Source of the DNA: Ignavibacteriaceae bacterium
GTDB taxonomy: Bacteria; Bacteroidota; Ignavibacteria; Ignavibacteriales; Ignavibacteriaceae
Assembly (NCBI GenBank): GCA_008933765.1
Contig: WBUK01000006.1
Coordinates: 85,404-149,403, forward strand
DNA: 64,000 nucleotides
Direction: 5' to 3'
Of the stretch, positions 11,321 through 18,331 are shown piece after piece. The translations under genes and the position numbers were made by a program. The stretch's first letter is position 1; each line of letters starts with the position of its first letter. A model generated the notes under the pieces. The model had not been told where the DNA came from. It ran no database searches and worked only from the letters and a program-made list of their open reading frames with translations.

Positions 11321-14300
11321 ATGTTCAAACCTTCCAACATAGAGTTTCAGAACGATGAAATTTCAGTCGCTCGGGCAACATTAATCGCCGAGGGCGAACG
11401 CCTTCTCTCTGAAGTGGTCCTCGAACAAGAAGGGGAAAACATTCTGCGCCGGCTTGAAGAACTTGACGGGCTTGCCGAAAAATTTGCCAATCAACCCGCC
11501 TCCCACTCACACAAAATTGTCGATGAAGTAAAAGCAACCGTTGCTTCTTTCACCCGGGAAGAAGCGGAAAAAGTTGCAAAAGCACTTTCGATTCGGGAAC
11601 TGATTACTACAGCCATTTCCGGGGGCGAATTTGTGCAATCAACCGGCAATTTATCAGAGCCGGAGGTGCTCTCTTTCGGCGCTTTCTGTGAAAATGGATT
11701 GGGAAGTGATATTTTAGCCCGTTCATTTGAAAAGTTAAAAGCTGACGGGTTCGATAGTAAAGGGATTGGGGAGCTGTTAAAATCAATTGAAGTTACCTCC
11801 GTTTTAACACCTCATCCCACTTGGGCTGATCGATATGAATCCTTAAAAAAAACGCAGGAAATCTGCCTGTTGCTGCAGAAAGCGGAATTTTTGGATCAGA
11901 AAATAAAGGCGGCTCTGACACTTTTATGGCAGATCGAGTGGCACAGGGATTGTGAAATTACCCCCGCTCACGAAGCGGAAAGAGCGTTTTTCTTCCTTAA
12001 AGAAACCGTTTACAAAGCCGTTGAACTGTTTTACAGGCAATTCTGTAAGGCTAAATCTGAAACCGGTTTAGAGTCAGGCAACGATTACACCTGCCCCAAA
12101 ATTAACTTCGGCTCGCTTATCTGCAGCGACAGGGTGGGCAACCCCGCTGTTACACCGCAATTAACTCGCGATTTTATGCAACTCCTTAGAGATGAAATAT
12201 TAAACCTTTACTTAGGTGAAATCGATTTTCTCATCCGGGAATTAACTCCGTCAGTTAAGGTTATTTCTGTATCCAAAGCCCTGAAATCCTCAATCAACAG
12301 CGATTTGAAGCAACCCCTGCTGAATGATTCTTCACTGTATTCATCCGAAAACTTCAATTTGCACCGGTTCGAAGGTCTGTTTCCGACACGGCTGAATGAT
12401 TTCTCTTCGCTTTCAACTGAAGGGGCTTTTAAGCGCTCGACGGATCAACTTTACCGCAAAAAATTGATAATTATAGCCGAACGCCTGAAAAGAACCCTGA
12501 ACCCCGAACCGGGGGGCTACACTTCACCCGATCAATTCATCGAAGACCTGAGACTGATTGATGAAAGTTTGTGCGAAAACAAAGCGGCCTCCGTTGCAGA
12601 ATTATGGGTTAAACCGCTGATTTACAAGGTTGAATCCTTCGGGTTCCATTTTGTGAAAACTGAGGTTAAGCAAAACTCACGAAGAATCCGCGACGCGGTT
12701 GAAGAACTCCTGTTTCAGACCGGCGTTGCCCCCGGTTTTCGCAAAATGAGCGAAGAACAAAAGGTTAAAGTTCTTCGCGATGAAGTGCTTTCGTCCCGCC
12801 CGCTGACCAACCAATTTTCGGTTTTAGCGCCGGAAACAGCGCAGATTATTGAGGAAATCGGAGTGATAAAATGGGCGTCGGAAAACATTTCAGCCGGCTC
12901 GGGCACCGACTATGTTTTTACCGACTGCTCCGCTTTCAGCGACCTTCTTTCCGCTCTTTTGCTCGCTAAAGAGGCCGGCTTGATCCGGGCGGAAGAGGGA
13001 CGAATTGCCGACTCACGGCTTGATATTGTGCCGCAATTTGAGCCTTCGGTTAACCCTGAAAAAGCAAAGGAAGTGTTGCGGGAGATGTTTGATTCCCGGC
13101 TGTACCGCCGGCATCTCCGCTTGCGCGGTAAAAAGGTGAAACTTCTGCTTGATTATACCGAGGCAGCAAAGCACTCCGGTGCCGTTGCTTCGGGCGTTCA
13201 GATGGTTCAGTTGCAAAAAGCGCTGACCGACCTCTGCAACGAATTTAAATTTGAACCCATTTTTTACCATGGAAAAGGAGGCGGTTTCACGGGTGATATA
13301 TTTGGCTCAGGTAACGGTATTGCCGGCGGTTACAAGGGGGATATACTCGGCTCCGGAAACGGCGTCACAGGTAGTGTCTCGGAGAATGTAATTAGCTTTG
13401 GTATTGGCTCGACCGGTAGTTGGGAGTTGGGTGGTGGTGTTGGTTTAGAAGCAGGTAATGCCGGGAGAAACGCAAACCGATTTTCCGCTAATATGATTTA
13501 CGACGCAATAACGGCAACTCCTTACAAATCTCTTTTTGGCAGAGTTAAATTTACAGAGCCGGGCGAAACGCTCGCTGCAAAATACGCCTTCCCCGAAACG
13601 GCCGCCGGTTCACTCGCCGGTTTGGTTGCTGCTGTTTTACTGAAAACAGCCGAAACATCTTCTGTGGCTTTGGATAAGGCAACTGATGCAACCTCCCCAA
13701 AAAGCAAGAAAGGCTCTAAAGTTAGGAAAACCTCAGAAGCCACAGAAGCTTCAAAAACCACGGAAGCCACGGAAGCTTCAAAAACTTCAGAGGCTACAGA
13801 AACTTCAAAAACCACAGAAGCCACGGAAATTGCAGAAATACCGGAAGTTGAAAGAGAGCCGGATGAAACTGCACCGCCGGCGAATCTCTCTTACACATCA
13901 CAATCCCTCAGCAGCACAGAGATTAACCTTCTGAGAACCATCGCCGGTTATGCCGAAGAAAAATACCGCTCTCTCGTCGAAACACAGGGGTTTTTTGATT
14001 ATTTCAGGCGTTTAACCCCCGTTGATTTAATTGAAAAATTAGAAAGCTCTCAAACCGACACTTCCGGCAGTTCACCAAAATCTGATTCTTCAGCGGGCTT
14101 CGTGGCTCCGGGAGTGGGAATATTCGGGAAAGATACCTCTGCAATTCGATCGGTTCCGTGGGCTTTCGCATGGGGGCTGCAACAGCTAAATATTTCACAG
14201 TGGTTCGGATACGGCACCGCTGTCGAAGAAACTATTTTGCACGAACACGCAACAGAAGCCGACCTTATCAGGCTTTATAATGGCAACCAAATCTTTAAAA

Positions 14301-15186: not shown

Positions 15187-15321
15187 TAAGACTCCTTTAA
15201 AATTTAAAAAAATGAAGTGTTGCCGTATCTCATGTTTGCACAAAAAGTATTGGGTCAATCGTTTGAGCTAATTTACCCGGTGCCCTGTTTGTGCTGAAAG
15301 TTCTCTGTATGTTTGCGGGTT

Positions 15322-15540
15322 GCACTTCTTCGCATTCAAATTGTATCAGCCAAAAGCAGGGAATCGCCTTTCCCTCTCCCACTTTTCACCGGCAGCACTT
15401 CTTAGCATTCAAATTGTATCAGCCAAAAGCAGGGAATCGCCTTTCCCTCTCCCACTTTTCACCGGCAGCACTTCTTCGCATTCAAATTGTATCAGCCAAA
15501 AGCAAAATTTCTGCCCGCAAAAGGCTCACCGGCAGCACTT
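15322..15540. repeat. Tandem 73-bp repeat, three full copies plus a partial fourth
   Basis: Units start with GCACTTCTT at 15322, 15395 and 15468, then a shortened, divergent copy closes at 15535. Copies are nearly identical. It fills the 369-bp gap between the mgtE 3' end and the deaminase 5' end and contains no recognisable gene; open frames through it are repeats of the same peptide. Confidence 0.9.
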
Positions 15541-15555
15541 CCGCCTTCCCAAATA

Positions 15556-16935
15556 TCACAAAAGCGTGCCGCGCAGAAAAATGGCGGCGCAGGTGAAGTA
15601 AATTATGATTCCGGTAACATCCACGAGCGTGGAAACGAACGGCGCAGATGAGGTGGCGGGGTCAAAACCTAAGCGCTTGAGAACCAACGGCAGCATCGAG
15701 CCGACAAATGTGCCCCACAAAACCACTCCTACCAACGCTGTTGATACACTTAGAGCTATCTGGAACCAATAATCAAGTTGGCTCATATCCAAAAATTCTA
15801 ATATTGCTATTCTGAAAAACCCGATTATCGCCAAAATCACCCCCAGTACTAAACCCGTTATGAACTCTTTGCGCATTACGCTCCACCAGTCGTGAATCGT
15901 TATTTCACCCAGCGAAAGCGCCCGCGTAACTAATGTTGCCGCCTGCGAACCCGAGTTACCTCCCGAAGCTATAACCAACGGAATGAAAAGCGAAAGTACA
16001 AGTGCCTTCTGAAGTTCTGCCTCGAAAATCCCAATCGCTGAAGCCGTTAAACTGCCGCTTATGAACAGCACCGCCAACCAGCCAACCCGCTTTTTTATCA
16101 TCTGAGGAATGGAAGTATCAACATAAGAATCCTCCAACGCCGAAACCGCACCGAGTTTTTGAATATCTTCGGTTGCTTCTTCTTCTGCCACATCCAGAAC
16201 ATCATCCACCGTTACGATGCCGATCAGAACACCCGCTGAGTCAACTACCGGCAGCGAAAGTTTGTCGTACTTTTTGAAAACTTCCACCGCTTCTTCCTGA
16301 TCGTCAAACGCACTGAGGGAGATGAAGTTGCTGTCCATTAAGTCATAAACCTTTTTGTGTAAAGGGTTTAGCAGGAACTCACGGATTCTTATATCATCGA
16401 CCAACTGCCCCTTCTCGTTGATTACATAGATGGTGTTCAGAGTTTCGGTATCTTCACCGTATTCCCGTATGTGATCCAGAACTTCTTTGATCGACCAGTC
16501 TTCTTCCACTGCAAGATAGTCGGGGGTCATAAGTCTTCCGACCGAGTTTTCGGGGTATCCAAGCAGCCGGCTGGCAACTGCCCGCTCTTCGTTTGAAAGG
16601 TAAGACATCATCTGCTTTGTTATATGCGCAGGAAGCTCTTCGAAGAAGGCGGTTCTGTCGTCGGGCGACATTTCGTTCAACACATTCGACACTTCCTCGC
16701 GCCCCATCGCTTTGATTATGCCGATTTGGTCGTCGGTGTCTAAATATTCGAAAGTTTCAATTTCAACATCTTTGGGGAGTACCCGGAAGAGAACCGCCCG
16801 ATCGTTGTCAGGCAGGCAGGAGATAAGGTCAGCCAGGTCCGCAGGGGTCCATTCATCTATTAATTCTCTGATCGGCGAAAGATTCCGTTGCTCTATCAGT
16901 TCGCTGATCTCTGGCTGAAGTATTTTTCCTATCAT
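15556..16935 (-). CDS. mgtE: Magnesium transporter MgtE
   Basis: A 459-residue inner-membrane Mg2+ channel. Domain order matches the family: an N-terminal superhelical domain (residues about 1-130, with NVLNEMSPDDRTAFFEELP), a tandem CBS pair (about 135-260, GRLMTPDYLAVEEDWSI and LPVVDSAGVLIGIVTVDDVL), a plug helix, and five membrane helices (about 285-459) carrying ASGGNSGSQAATLVTR and the pore segment DPATSSAPFVSTLVDV with its conserved Asp. Length is normal. The ATG at 16935 is preceded by GGAGAAGA. Gating by cytosolic Mg2+ through the N and CBS domains is established for the family. Transcribed alone. Confidence 0.95.
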   Translation of the reverse strand: MIGKILQPEISELIEQRNLSPIRELIDEWTPADLADLISCLPDNDRAVLFRVLPKDVEIETFEYLDTDDQIGIIKAMGREEVSNVLNEMSPDDRTAFFEELPAHITKQMMSYLSNEERAVASRLLGYPENSVGRLMTPDYLAVEEDWSIKEVLDHIREYGEDTETLNTIYVINEKGQLVDDIRIREFLLNPLHKKVYDLMDSNFISLSAFDDQEEAVEVFKKYDKLSLPVVDSAGVLIGIVTVDDVLDVAEEEATEDIQKLGAVSALEDSYVDTSIPQMIKKRVGWLAVLFISGSLTASAIGIFEAELQKALVLSLFIPLVIASGGNSGSQAATLVTRALSLGEITIHDWWSVMRKEFITGLVLGVILAIIGFFRIAILEFLDMSQLDYWFQIALSVSTALVGVVLWGTFVGSMLPLVLKRLGFDPATSSAPFVSTLVDVTGIIIYFTCAAIFLRGTLL

Positions 16936-17204: not shown

Positions 17205-17276
17205 GGGTGCGTAGCTCAGGGGTAGAGCATCTGCCTTTTAAGCAGAGGGTCGGTGGTTCGATCCCACCCGCACTCA
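17205..17276 (+). tRNA. tRNA-Lys (anticodon UUU)
   Basis: A complete cloverleaf of 72 bases: acceptor GGGTGCG/CGCACTC, D-arm GCTC/GAGC, anticodon arm TCTGC-CTTTTAA-GCAGA with anticodon TTT, five-base variable loop, and T-arm GGTGG-TTCGATC-CCACC, then discriminator A. CCA is not encoded. A strong hairpin follows at once. Confidence 0.96.
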
Positions 17277-17282
17277 CAATTA

Positions 17283-17317
17283 CAACAAAGCCTTCGGTGA
17301 TCTCGAAGGCTTTGTTG
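17283..17317 (+). terminator. Terminator hairpin after tRNA-Lys
   Basis: A perfect 14-bp stem (CAACAAAGCCTTCG with its complement) and seven-base loop, followed by GTTTTAAAA. A near-identical hairpin closes the tRNA-like array at 18153. Confidence 0.8.
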
Positions 17318-17407
17318 GTTTTAAAAGGTAACCTAACTCAGTTGCGCCTCAACTTAAATAAAACTTGAAACTTTAACCCTTCTTCTTTTTAGAAAATTTC
17401 CGGGGAA

Positions 17408-17478
17408 AGGTGTTGTTTAACTTGTTAGAGCATTCCGATTAATCGGAAGAATCGGTGGTTCGATCCCACCCGCACTCA
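17408..17478 (+). pseudogene. tRNA-like unit 1
   Basis: About 71 bases. The 5' acceptor strand AGGTGTT can form about five of seven pairs with CGCACTC. The palindrome is at 17433-17448 and the variable loop reads GAATC. Followed by a 12-bp hairpin at 17485-17516. Confidence 0.6.
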
Positions 17479-17587
17479 CAAGTTAAGTCCTTGTAATTAA
17501 ATAAGTTACAAGGACTTCTTTGTATTAAAATAAATGTTCTCTTAAACTGAATACTTCACCCCTCTTCACTTTAAAAAATTTCCAGCG

Positions 17588-17660
17588 AAGTGTGTTATCT
17601 GATTTGTTAGAGCATTCCGATTAATCGGAAGGGTCGGTGGTTCGATCCCACCCGCACTCA
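17588..17660 (+). pseudogene. tRNA-like unit 2
   Basis: About 73 bases. The 5' strand AAGTGTG pairs with CGCACTC at six of seven positions. The anticodon-arm palindrome (17615-17630) gives a five-bp stem and six-base loop ATTAAT, one base short of a normal loop. Hairpin at 17667-17697. Confidence 0.6.
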
Positions 17661-17767
17661 CAAGTTAAGTCCTTGCACATAAAAAATGTAAGGACTTCTT
17701 TGTATTAAAATAAATGTTCTCTTAAACTGAATACTTCACCCCTCTTCACTTTAAAAAATTTCCAGCG

Positions 17768-17840
17768 AAGTGTGTTATCTGATTTGTTAGAGCATTCCGA
17801 TTAATCGGAAGGGTCGGTGGTTCGATCCCACCCGCACTCA
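17768..17840 (+). pseudogene. tRNA-like unit 3
   Basis: Identical to unit 2 over the whole 180-bp period, including the palindrome at 17795-17810 and the hairpin at 17847-17877. Recent duplication is implied. Confidence 0.6.
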
Positions 17841-17947
17841 CAAGTTAAGTCCTTGCACATAAAAAATGTAAGGACTTCTTTGTATTAAAATAAATGTTCT
17901 CTTAAACTGAATACTTCACCCCTCTTCACTTTAAAAAATTTCCAGCG

Positions 17948-18020
17948 AAGTGTGTTATCTGATTTGTTAGAGCATTCCGATTAATCGGAAGAATCGGTGG
18001 TTCGATCCCACCCGCACTCA
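17948..18020 (+). pseudogene. tRNA-like unit 4
   Basis: As units 2 and 3 but with variable loop GAATC, as in unit 1, and a changed tail after the hairpin (18027-18057). Palindrome at 17975-17990. Confidence 0.6.
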
Positions 18021-18089
18021 CAAGTTAAGTCCTTGCACATAAAAAATGTAAGGACTTGTTTATTTTAAAGGAAATTCCGATTTTCCCAC

Positions 18090-18146
18090 TTGTTAGAGCA
18101 TTCCGATTAATCGGAAGGGTCGGTGGTTCGATCCCACCCGCACTTA
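18090..18146 (+). pseudogene. tRNA-like unit 5, 5' part lost
   Basis: Retains TTAGAGC, the palindrome (18101-18116), the T-arm and CGCACTTA, but no 5' acceptor strand that would pair. The following hairpin (18153-18187) copies the genuine tRNA-Lys terminator with one mismatch. Confidence 0.55.
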
Positions 18147-18152
18147 CAATTA

Positions 18153-18187
18153 CAACAAAACCTTCGAGACCATCGAAGGCTTTGTTG
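18153..18187 (+). terminator. Hairpin closing the tRNA-like array
   Basis: CAACAAAACCTTCG pairs with CGAAGGCTTTGTTG with one mismatch around a seven-base loop. No T run follows, but it is homologous to the terminator at 17283. Confidence 0.55.
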
Positions 18188-18331
18188 TAAATAAATCATA
18201 CTCTTTTAATCGAGAGACTAAAAACTATATAAATAAAGTTAGAAATGAACTAATTTACACCGTTGAAAAATGTCTTAAAAATCAGAAATATGTTAAGAAT
18301 TTGCAAATATAAACAGTTCTTTCATCTATCT

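Follow-up and report, generated by a model that had tools for sequence, protein, structure and literature searches.

The tRNA-Lys gene and its five derived units

The window, by which we mean the whole stretch of 64,000 nucleotides that was analyzed, belongs to contig C29 in the draft genome of an Ignavibacteriaceae bacterium, an assembly of 37 contigs that is about 90% complete. Its only tRNA gene, according to ARAGORN and to Rfam at gathering scores, is tRNA-Lys(TTT), which has a divergent mgtE gene upstream and is followed by its own terminator and an array of five tRNA-Lys-derived units (Table 1). An earlier note on this DNA, made from the sequence alone, had described these units, and all five are present in register. 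As it had also stated, each of them has the perfect 16-bp palindrome TTCCGATTAATCGGAA in place of the anticodon arm and keeps the T arm and 3' acceptor strand. The arm replaced is 17 nt long, and the 3' part of the D arm is likewise preserved. The spacing of exactly 180 bp that it had given for the first four units applies to the second and third steps and not to the first; successive unit starts are separated by 182, 180, 180, and 126 nt. We likewise found the hairpins that it had reported: those of units 1 to 3 have a T-rich tail, that of unit 4 has an altered tail, and unit 5 precedes a diverged copy of the terminator belonging to the true tRNA. Over 69 nt, the identity to unit 2 is 100% for unit 3, 91% for unit 1, 97% for unit 4, and 93% for unit 5.

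Table 1. Features of the tRNA-Lys locus in the window
Feature	Coordinates	Strand	Basis or remark
mgtE, divergent, upstream of tRNA-Lys	15556..16935	-	Pfam; tblastn
Intact tRNA-Lys(TTT), parent gene	17205..17277	+	ARAGORN; Rfam RF00005, 70 bits
Terminator A of the intact tRNA-Lys	17280..17322	+	Inverted-repeat arm, T-rich tail
Unit 1, 3'-type tRNA-Lys copy; palindrome 17433-17448 replaces the anticodon arm	17413..17481	+	
Terminator B hairpin and T-rich tail, 3' of unit 1	17485..17522	+	Read directly
Unit 2; palindrome 17615-17630	17595..17663	+	Near-cloverleaf MFE fold
Terminator B hairpin, 3' of unit 2	17667..17702	+	
Unit 3 (same sequence as unit 2); palindrome 17795-17810	17775..17843	+	
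Terminator B hairpin, 3' of unit 3	17847..17882	+	
Unit 4; palindrome 17975-17990	17955..18023	+	
Hairpin with changed tail, 3' of unit 4	18027..18062	+	
Unit 5 (last); palindrome 18101-18116	18081..18149	+	No cloverleaf in the MFE fold
Terminator A', a copy of terminator A that has diverged	18150..18190	+	Repeat family D3, 89%

A 20-mer around the palindrome, with up to two mismatches allowed, occurs in the 3.36-Mb genome only at the five array sites. The shorter pattern CCGAN1-8TCGG matches the window at 15 places; the expected number was 6.9, and none of 100 shuffles reached 15. Units 2 to 4 had been said to fold into a near-cloverleaf. The MFE structure of unit 2, and hence of the identical unit 3, is indeed of this kind, with a 6-bp hairpin and a 4-nt loop at the anticodon position, but the fold z-scores of the three units folded are weak (-1.5 for unit 1, -1.8 for unit 2, and -0.6 for unit 5).

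Two other features of the window lie outside the array. An open reading frame (ORF) for phosphoenolpyruvate carboxylase contains a low-complexity run of TEAT/SEAT-like residues at 13500-13930, and repeats just past the end of mgtE (15291-15600) produce recurring peptide motifs in ORFs that are probably spurious.

Hairpin-bearing tRNA copies and a small GIY-YIG gene in related genomes

A search of related genomes had been proposed in the earlier note. When one unit was searched for in 59 genomes (the window's own and 58 relatives), hairpin-bearing tRNA-Lys copies were found in genomes G009, G019, G033, and G041. Between tRNA-Lys and a hairpin copy, G009 and G041 have a small ORF of about 85 codons. 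Its product is a GIY-YIG domain, as was found for three of three proteins (PF01541, 57.8 bits for the window genome's own protein and 63.2 and 65.4 bits for the G009/G041 proteins; cut-off, 22.6). Residues Y15 (of YIG), R25, H29, and E61, which we take to be the catalytic residues, are invariant in six of six Asp-type proteins. The median dN/dS was 0.076 and the maximum was 0.23 for the 58 of 119 pairs with 0<dS<2.5, pairs that share sequences and so are not independent. These low ratios indicate purifying selection on the nuclease ORF, which is kept as a protein.

The fullest cassette consists of a 5' hairpin-bearing tRNA copy, the intact tRNA gene, a terminator, the GIY-YIG ORF, and a 3' hairpin-bearing tRNA copy. 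Cassettes are at times found in tandem, and often one side or the ORF is missing. At several loci, the ORF reads into the 3' copy and has its stop codon there, in some cases within the D arm. Hairpin-bearing partial copies exist at more than 12 kinds of tRNA gene in the Ignavibacteria lineage and Bacteroidota. Of the 74 loci that were chosen for a unit sequence or a palindrome pattern, units are present at 40 as judged by flanking tRNA sequence; a GIY-YIG match is present at 19 of these (full at 15) and absent at 21, the ORF-less loci being overcounted because some lie at contig ends.

The window's own genome has three PF01541 matches, one of which is of the small type. This gene, the only small GIY-YIG ORF found there, starts 54 bp past tRNA-Asp, which is itself preceded by two 5' hairpin copies. 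At tRNA-Val (L059, G000:C30:58300-62300, minus strand), there are three 3' hairpin copies and no ORF. Since hairpin copies exist at tRNA-Lys, tRNA-Asp, and tRNA-Val, at least three tRNA genes are affected in this genome. Past the last copy at tRNA-Val, about 110 bp of downstream flank is repeated, with a TTTGGTTYAGA-like microhomology near the junction.

No GIY-YIG domain match was obtained at the array locus (L001), and no Lys-clade nuclease was found in the genome, which is about 90% complete. The array therefore does not itself encode the nuclease and is at most a nonautonomous derivative; because the window is without a nuclease, the enzyme was invisible to the earlier note. Two candidate remnants were rejected. 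(i) The best peptide score for a GIY-YIG remnant in the window spacers, 24, is at background (median, 22; 99% at 34; maximum, 40). (ii) The alignment of a decayed 5' copy upstream of the window tRNA-Lys is at chance, with 152 of 2,000 shuffles and 630 of 5,012 background windows scoring as high.

Linkage of the nuclease to tRNA genes and their isotypes

For the linkage analysis, 110 locus-strands carrying a small-type GIY-YIG gene were chosen by Pfam match alone, regardless of tRNAs. They derive from the best PF01541 matches in the 59 genomes (30 automatic, 3 own-genome, and 80 further stretches), with rows already taken from other searches and some rows at the end of the list left out of the sample. 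Among the matches listed, a tRNA or transfer-messenger RNA (tmRNA) gene lies within 400 bp on the same strand in 57 of the 110 and on the opposite strand in none; 53 have no tRNA within this distance. Many isotypes are represented, and one locus is at the tmRNA gene. At this locus (L145, G038:C7:71000-73600), a small GIY-YIG ORF starts 17 bp past the tmRNA gene, and beyond it lies a copy of part of the tmRNA 3' end; GIY-YIG targeting may thus extend to tmRNA.

Asp-type proteins were used to find loci in named genomes, and 80 such loci were among the matches listed. A same-strand tRNA lies within 400 bp at 55 of them, including one doubtful "tRNA-Stop," and an opposite-strand tRNA lies within that distance at one at least (L287). 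Thirty of the 80 are at tRNA-Ala(GGC), many of them in Flavobacterium, and at 60 an extra 12-nt exact piece of the nearby tRNA is present outside intact genes.

Nuclease clades follow the tRNA isotype. For the 136 distinct domains, a quick tree built on 77 columns left 55 of its 133 inner branches open. On it, the isotype label changes 27 times, compared with a shuffled mean of 80.0, and none of 200 shuffles was as low; "none" was counted as a label in this test, which near copies inflate. Because the labels change less often than when shuffled, the enzymes are seen to follow the tRNA. One clade joins the Lys and Val rows and two of the five Met rows, the tRNAs of which have similar arms, and 41 of the 136 domains are without a tRNA and form one clade. 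Several genes of this tRNA-free clade (L112, L117, L123, L106, and L127) are followed by other palindromic, REP-like repeats that are not tRNA copies. The palindrome start TCCCGA is common to many isotypes (113 of 196 units).

Empty and occupied sites

Empty and occupied alleles exist at the same site for two tRNA genes. The same-genus genome G002 has a plain tRNA-Asp, that is, an empty site, whereas in G003 the same upstream flank (102 of 102 nt of the query) leads into a 5' hairpin copy, the intact tRNA-Asp, the nuclease ORF, and a 3' hairpin copy, and in G001 it leads into the intact tRNA-Asp, the ORF, and a 3' copy. Alignment of the right flank of the empty site is limited to a terminator-like stretch. 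The intact tRNA-Asp is identical in the empty G002 and in the occupied G001 and G003, and the redundant copies are disrupted. Self-protection by recoding of the intact tRNA was considered and, for tRNA-Asp, rejected, since a gene that is identical in empty and occupied genomes has not been recoded for resistance.

The second case is tRNA-Lys, which has mgtE upstream in G009, G019, and G011 (tblastn) as in the window. At this locus, the stretch of G011 that was read contains no copies, and G009 has a full cassette, with two ORFs and copies. In G019, a copy has a C-terminal piece of the ORF before it (spacer peptide score, 91; highest background score, 40) and an N-terminal piece after it, and in the window there are copies alone; the order G011, G009, G019, window is a reading of states and not a dated history. 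In the same-genus genome G001, tRNA-Lys is followed by a similar terminator, and the contig ends just beyond (L017). In G002, the 14.6 kb separating tRNA-Lys from a 3' fragment (L018, C1:565272; L019, C1:579887) looks like an ordinary tRNA-integrated island.

Position of the hairpin and origin of the copies

We collected 196 distinct palindromic units flanked on either side by tRNA sequence (a match of 8 nt or more out of 9). Positions are given as the last tRNA base before the hairpin and the first after it; counts across positions are biased, because many loci were chosen by a pattern favoring palindromes just upstream of the T arm. The hairpin position is characteristic of the isotype. In 3' copies, it is 28/46 in 23 of 24 Val(TAC) units, 50-51/59-60 in 16 of 16 Asp units, 25/43 in 11 of 17 Lys units (3 others deviate by no more than one base on each side), and 27/45 in 13 of 24 Ala units, for which a second site, 57/63, is used in 8. 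For Asn, it is 21/33 in 4 of 6 5' copies and 35/47-48 in 5 of 10 3' copies, and for Met the positions are mixed. The hairpin thus stands in for the anticodon arm in Lys, Val, Pro, and Ala copies, which is why a near-cloverleaf was noticed in the window units. Its location in Asp copies (T arm) and Asn copies (anticodon/variable region) would break the cloverleaf.

An ungapped comparison of the 3' halves, possible for 93 of the 3' units, gave 85% identity to the local tRNA and 73% identity to tRNAs of the same isotype elsewhere. The local tRNA is the better match in 83 of the 93 and an equal match in 8. This pattern indicates that the copies derive from, or are converted by, the local tRNA gene; because the 3' halves are closest to the local tRNA, foreign homology arms are not visible.

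A probable selfish cassette homing into tRNA genes

On balance, the window array is probably a nuclease-less derivative of a selfish cassette that homes into tRNA genes and carries a GIY-YIG nuclease predicted to cut them. Several findings weigh against this reading: (i) the nearest 400 bp are without a tRNA at 53 of the 110 loci sampled among the matches listed, and the tRNA-free clade accounts for 41 of the 136 domains; (ii) no Lys-clade nuclease was found in the window genome, and the spacers hold no detectable ORF remnant; and (iii) the intact tRNA-Asp is identical at empty and occupied sites, a decayed 5' copy upstream of the window tRNA-Lys is unsupported, the 3' halves resemble the local tRNA, and the right flank of the Asp site aligns poorly.

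The closest known counterpart is SegB, a free-standing GIY-YIG homing endonuclease of T-even phages. According to the available part of the published account, the gene for SegB neighbors tRNA genes of many isotypes, the breaks have been mapped within tRNA genes of the phage, and SegB drives the tandem amplification of tRNA-Tyr and segB; its self-protection is called an open question by the authors (PMC13096335). The cassettes are like SegB, as described there, in pairing a GIY-YIG nuclease with tRNA genes of many isotypes and in forming tandem arrays, and unlike the phage-borne SegB in being chromosomal. They also have palindrome-bearing tRNA copies, a pairing of clade with isotype, and ORF-less arrays, none of which appears in that part of the account (PMC13096335). 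By our own comparison, the reported SegB motif, RAWTSGAAC (PMC13096335), fits the tRNA T arm.

By analogy, the cassette likely works as SegB does, and its cutting, mobility, and self-protection are inferred. The small nuclease would cut its tRNA gene in a naive genome, and the break would be repaired from a cassette-bearing copy, with tRNA halves as homology arms. The old tRNA gene would thereby be split into two outer copies, with a complete tRNA kept or brought in between. The predicted product, host flank, 5' half, complete tRNA and ORF, 3' half, host flank, is the arrangement seen in G003. The palindrome, by replacing part of the target, would make the redundant copies uncuttable and so prevent recutting, and recombination between copies could make arrays grow or shrink and delete the ORF.

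Transfer RNA genes are among the most conserved DNA in cells, and an element that targets them therefore has a site in every genome. More tentatively, and with somewhat less confidence than an even chance would warrant, we suggest that the cassettes form a class of selfish bacterial elements, widespread and as yet undescribed, that exploit tRNA genes. Such elements would combine tiny GIY-YIG nucleases specialized for one isotype or a few look-alikes, a rescue tRNA, split tRNA halves as cross-species homology arms, and a shared palindromic "lock," with ORF-less arrays as their nonautonomous offspring. A chromosomal counterpart of SegB with nucleases specialized by isotype would account for numerous small GIY-YIG genes and unusual tRNA pseudogenes of Bacteroidota and their kin. 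A literature search covering titles and abstract openings of the papers listed, with most subscription papers and preprints outside it, found no description of this system.

Two solved chains match the nuclease by sequence, the UPF0213 small GIY-YIG proteins 1ywl and 1zg2 of the PDB (E values, 4.7e-6 and 2.2e-4), which are named there merely as hypothetical proteins.

Other known elements share single features with the cassettes. In fungal mitochondria, homing endonuclease insertions duplicate the 3' end of a gene, so that there, too, a gene is split and then restored with an extra copy of one half; unlike the tRNA cassettes, those insertions affect protein genes and are not known to have such palindromes. 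Rickettsia palindromic elements and the REP/RAYT system place palindromes inside genes or spread them with a nuclease-like protein, and we know of no tie between them and such tRNA copies or GIY-YIG enzymes.

Alternative explanations

The palindrome could instead be the substrate of the nuclease: a structure-specific GIY-YIG enzyme acting on single-stranded DNA hairpins would move REP-like palindromes, and tRNA genes would be passive landing pads. We consider this unlikely, yet it stays alive because most of the 31 genomes examined show genome-wide enrichment of TCCCGAN1-8TCGGGA (15 matches versus 1 for the control in the window genome and 53 versus 1 in G010), with G042 (2 versus 5) and G048 (1 versus 2) showing no enrichment. 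It would also fit the several tRNA-distant GIY-YIG genes that precede other palindromic repeats, and a Neisseria GIY-YIG nuclease reportedly acts on single-stranded hairpin repeats. What speaks against it is that the nuclease clades follow the isotype, while one palindrome start serves many isotypes.

The units could also encode related small RNAs that resemble tRNA and act, for instance, as decoys or as the RNA antitoxin to a nuclease toxin. This was one suggestion of the earlier note, and the near-cloverleaf of units 2 and 3 and the terminator-like hairpin after each of units 1 to 3 are in its favor. We now regard it as improbable: a conserved tRNA-like fold is not supported, given the weak z-scores of units 1, 2, and 5 and a hairpin position in Asp and Asn units that is incompatible with a cloverleaf. 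Moreover, the stop codon of the ORF is often inside the 3' copy, and 21 of 40 unit-bearing loci, some of them at contig ends, have no nuclease match.

That the units are pseudogenes kept similar by recent duplication had been proposed as well. This is correct insofar as units 2 and 3 are identical and 3' halves track the local tRNA, but plain pseudogenes formed by tandem duplication, or an assembly artifact, are very improbable, since the same kind of unit exists at two other tRNAs of the window genome and in many further genomes, including the single-contig G004, G021, G028, and G056. The remaining proposal, a recombination or attachment-site array, came nearest, in that the tRNA copies are tied to a GIY-YIG nuclease. 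Although tRNA genes are common integration sites and G002 has 14.6 kb between tRNA-Lys and a 3' fragment, attachment sites of a tyrosine recombinase integrating in tRNA-Lys are hardly credible here, because that fragment retains the anticodon arm, which the array units replace, and no recombinase domain was found in the six window proteins neighboring the array (two of which have no Pfam family).

Distribution of the units and cassettes

A strict anticodon-arm pattern matched 19 of 395 genomes of the phylum, with none for the backward control among the matches listed. A looser pattern matched 91 of 164 genomes of the order, a number that includes chance matches, the backward control matching some genomes too. 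Both counts are a rough guide rather than a census. A tblastn search with the Asp-type protein of the window genome gave no match at or below 1e-5 in 50,697 phage and 72,556 plasmid records, a result that covers matches to this threshold and leaves more distant relatives possible.

Among the single-contig genomes, G021 and G004 each have five tandem GIY-YIG ORFs, evenly spaced by 450 bp after tRNA-Leu (L147) and by 315 bp after tRNA-Asp (L196), respectively. One hairpin copy (L003/L010) is called an undetermined tRNA by ARAGORN, and such units can therefore pollute tRNA annotation.
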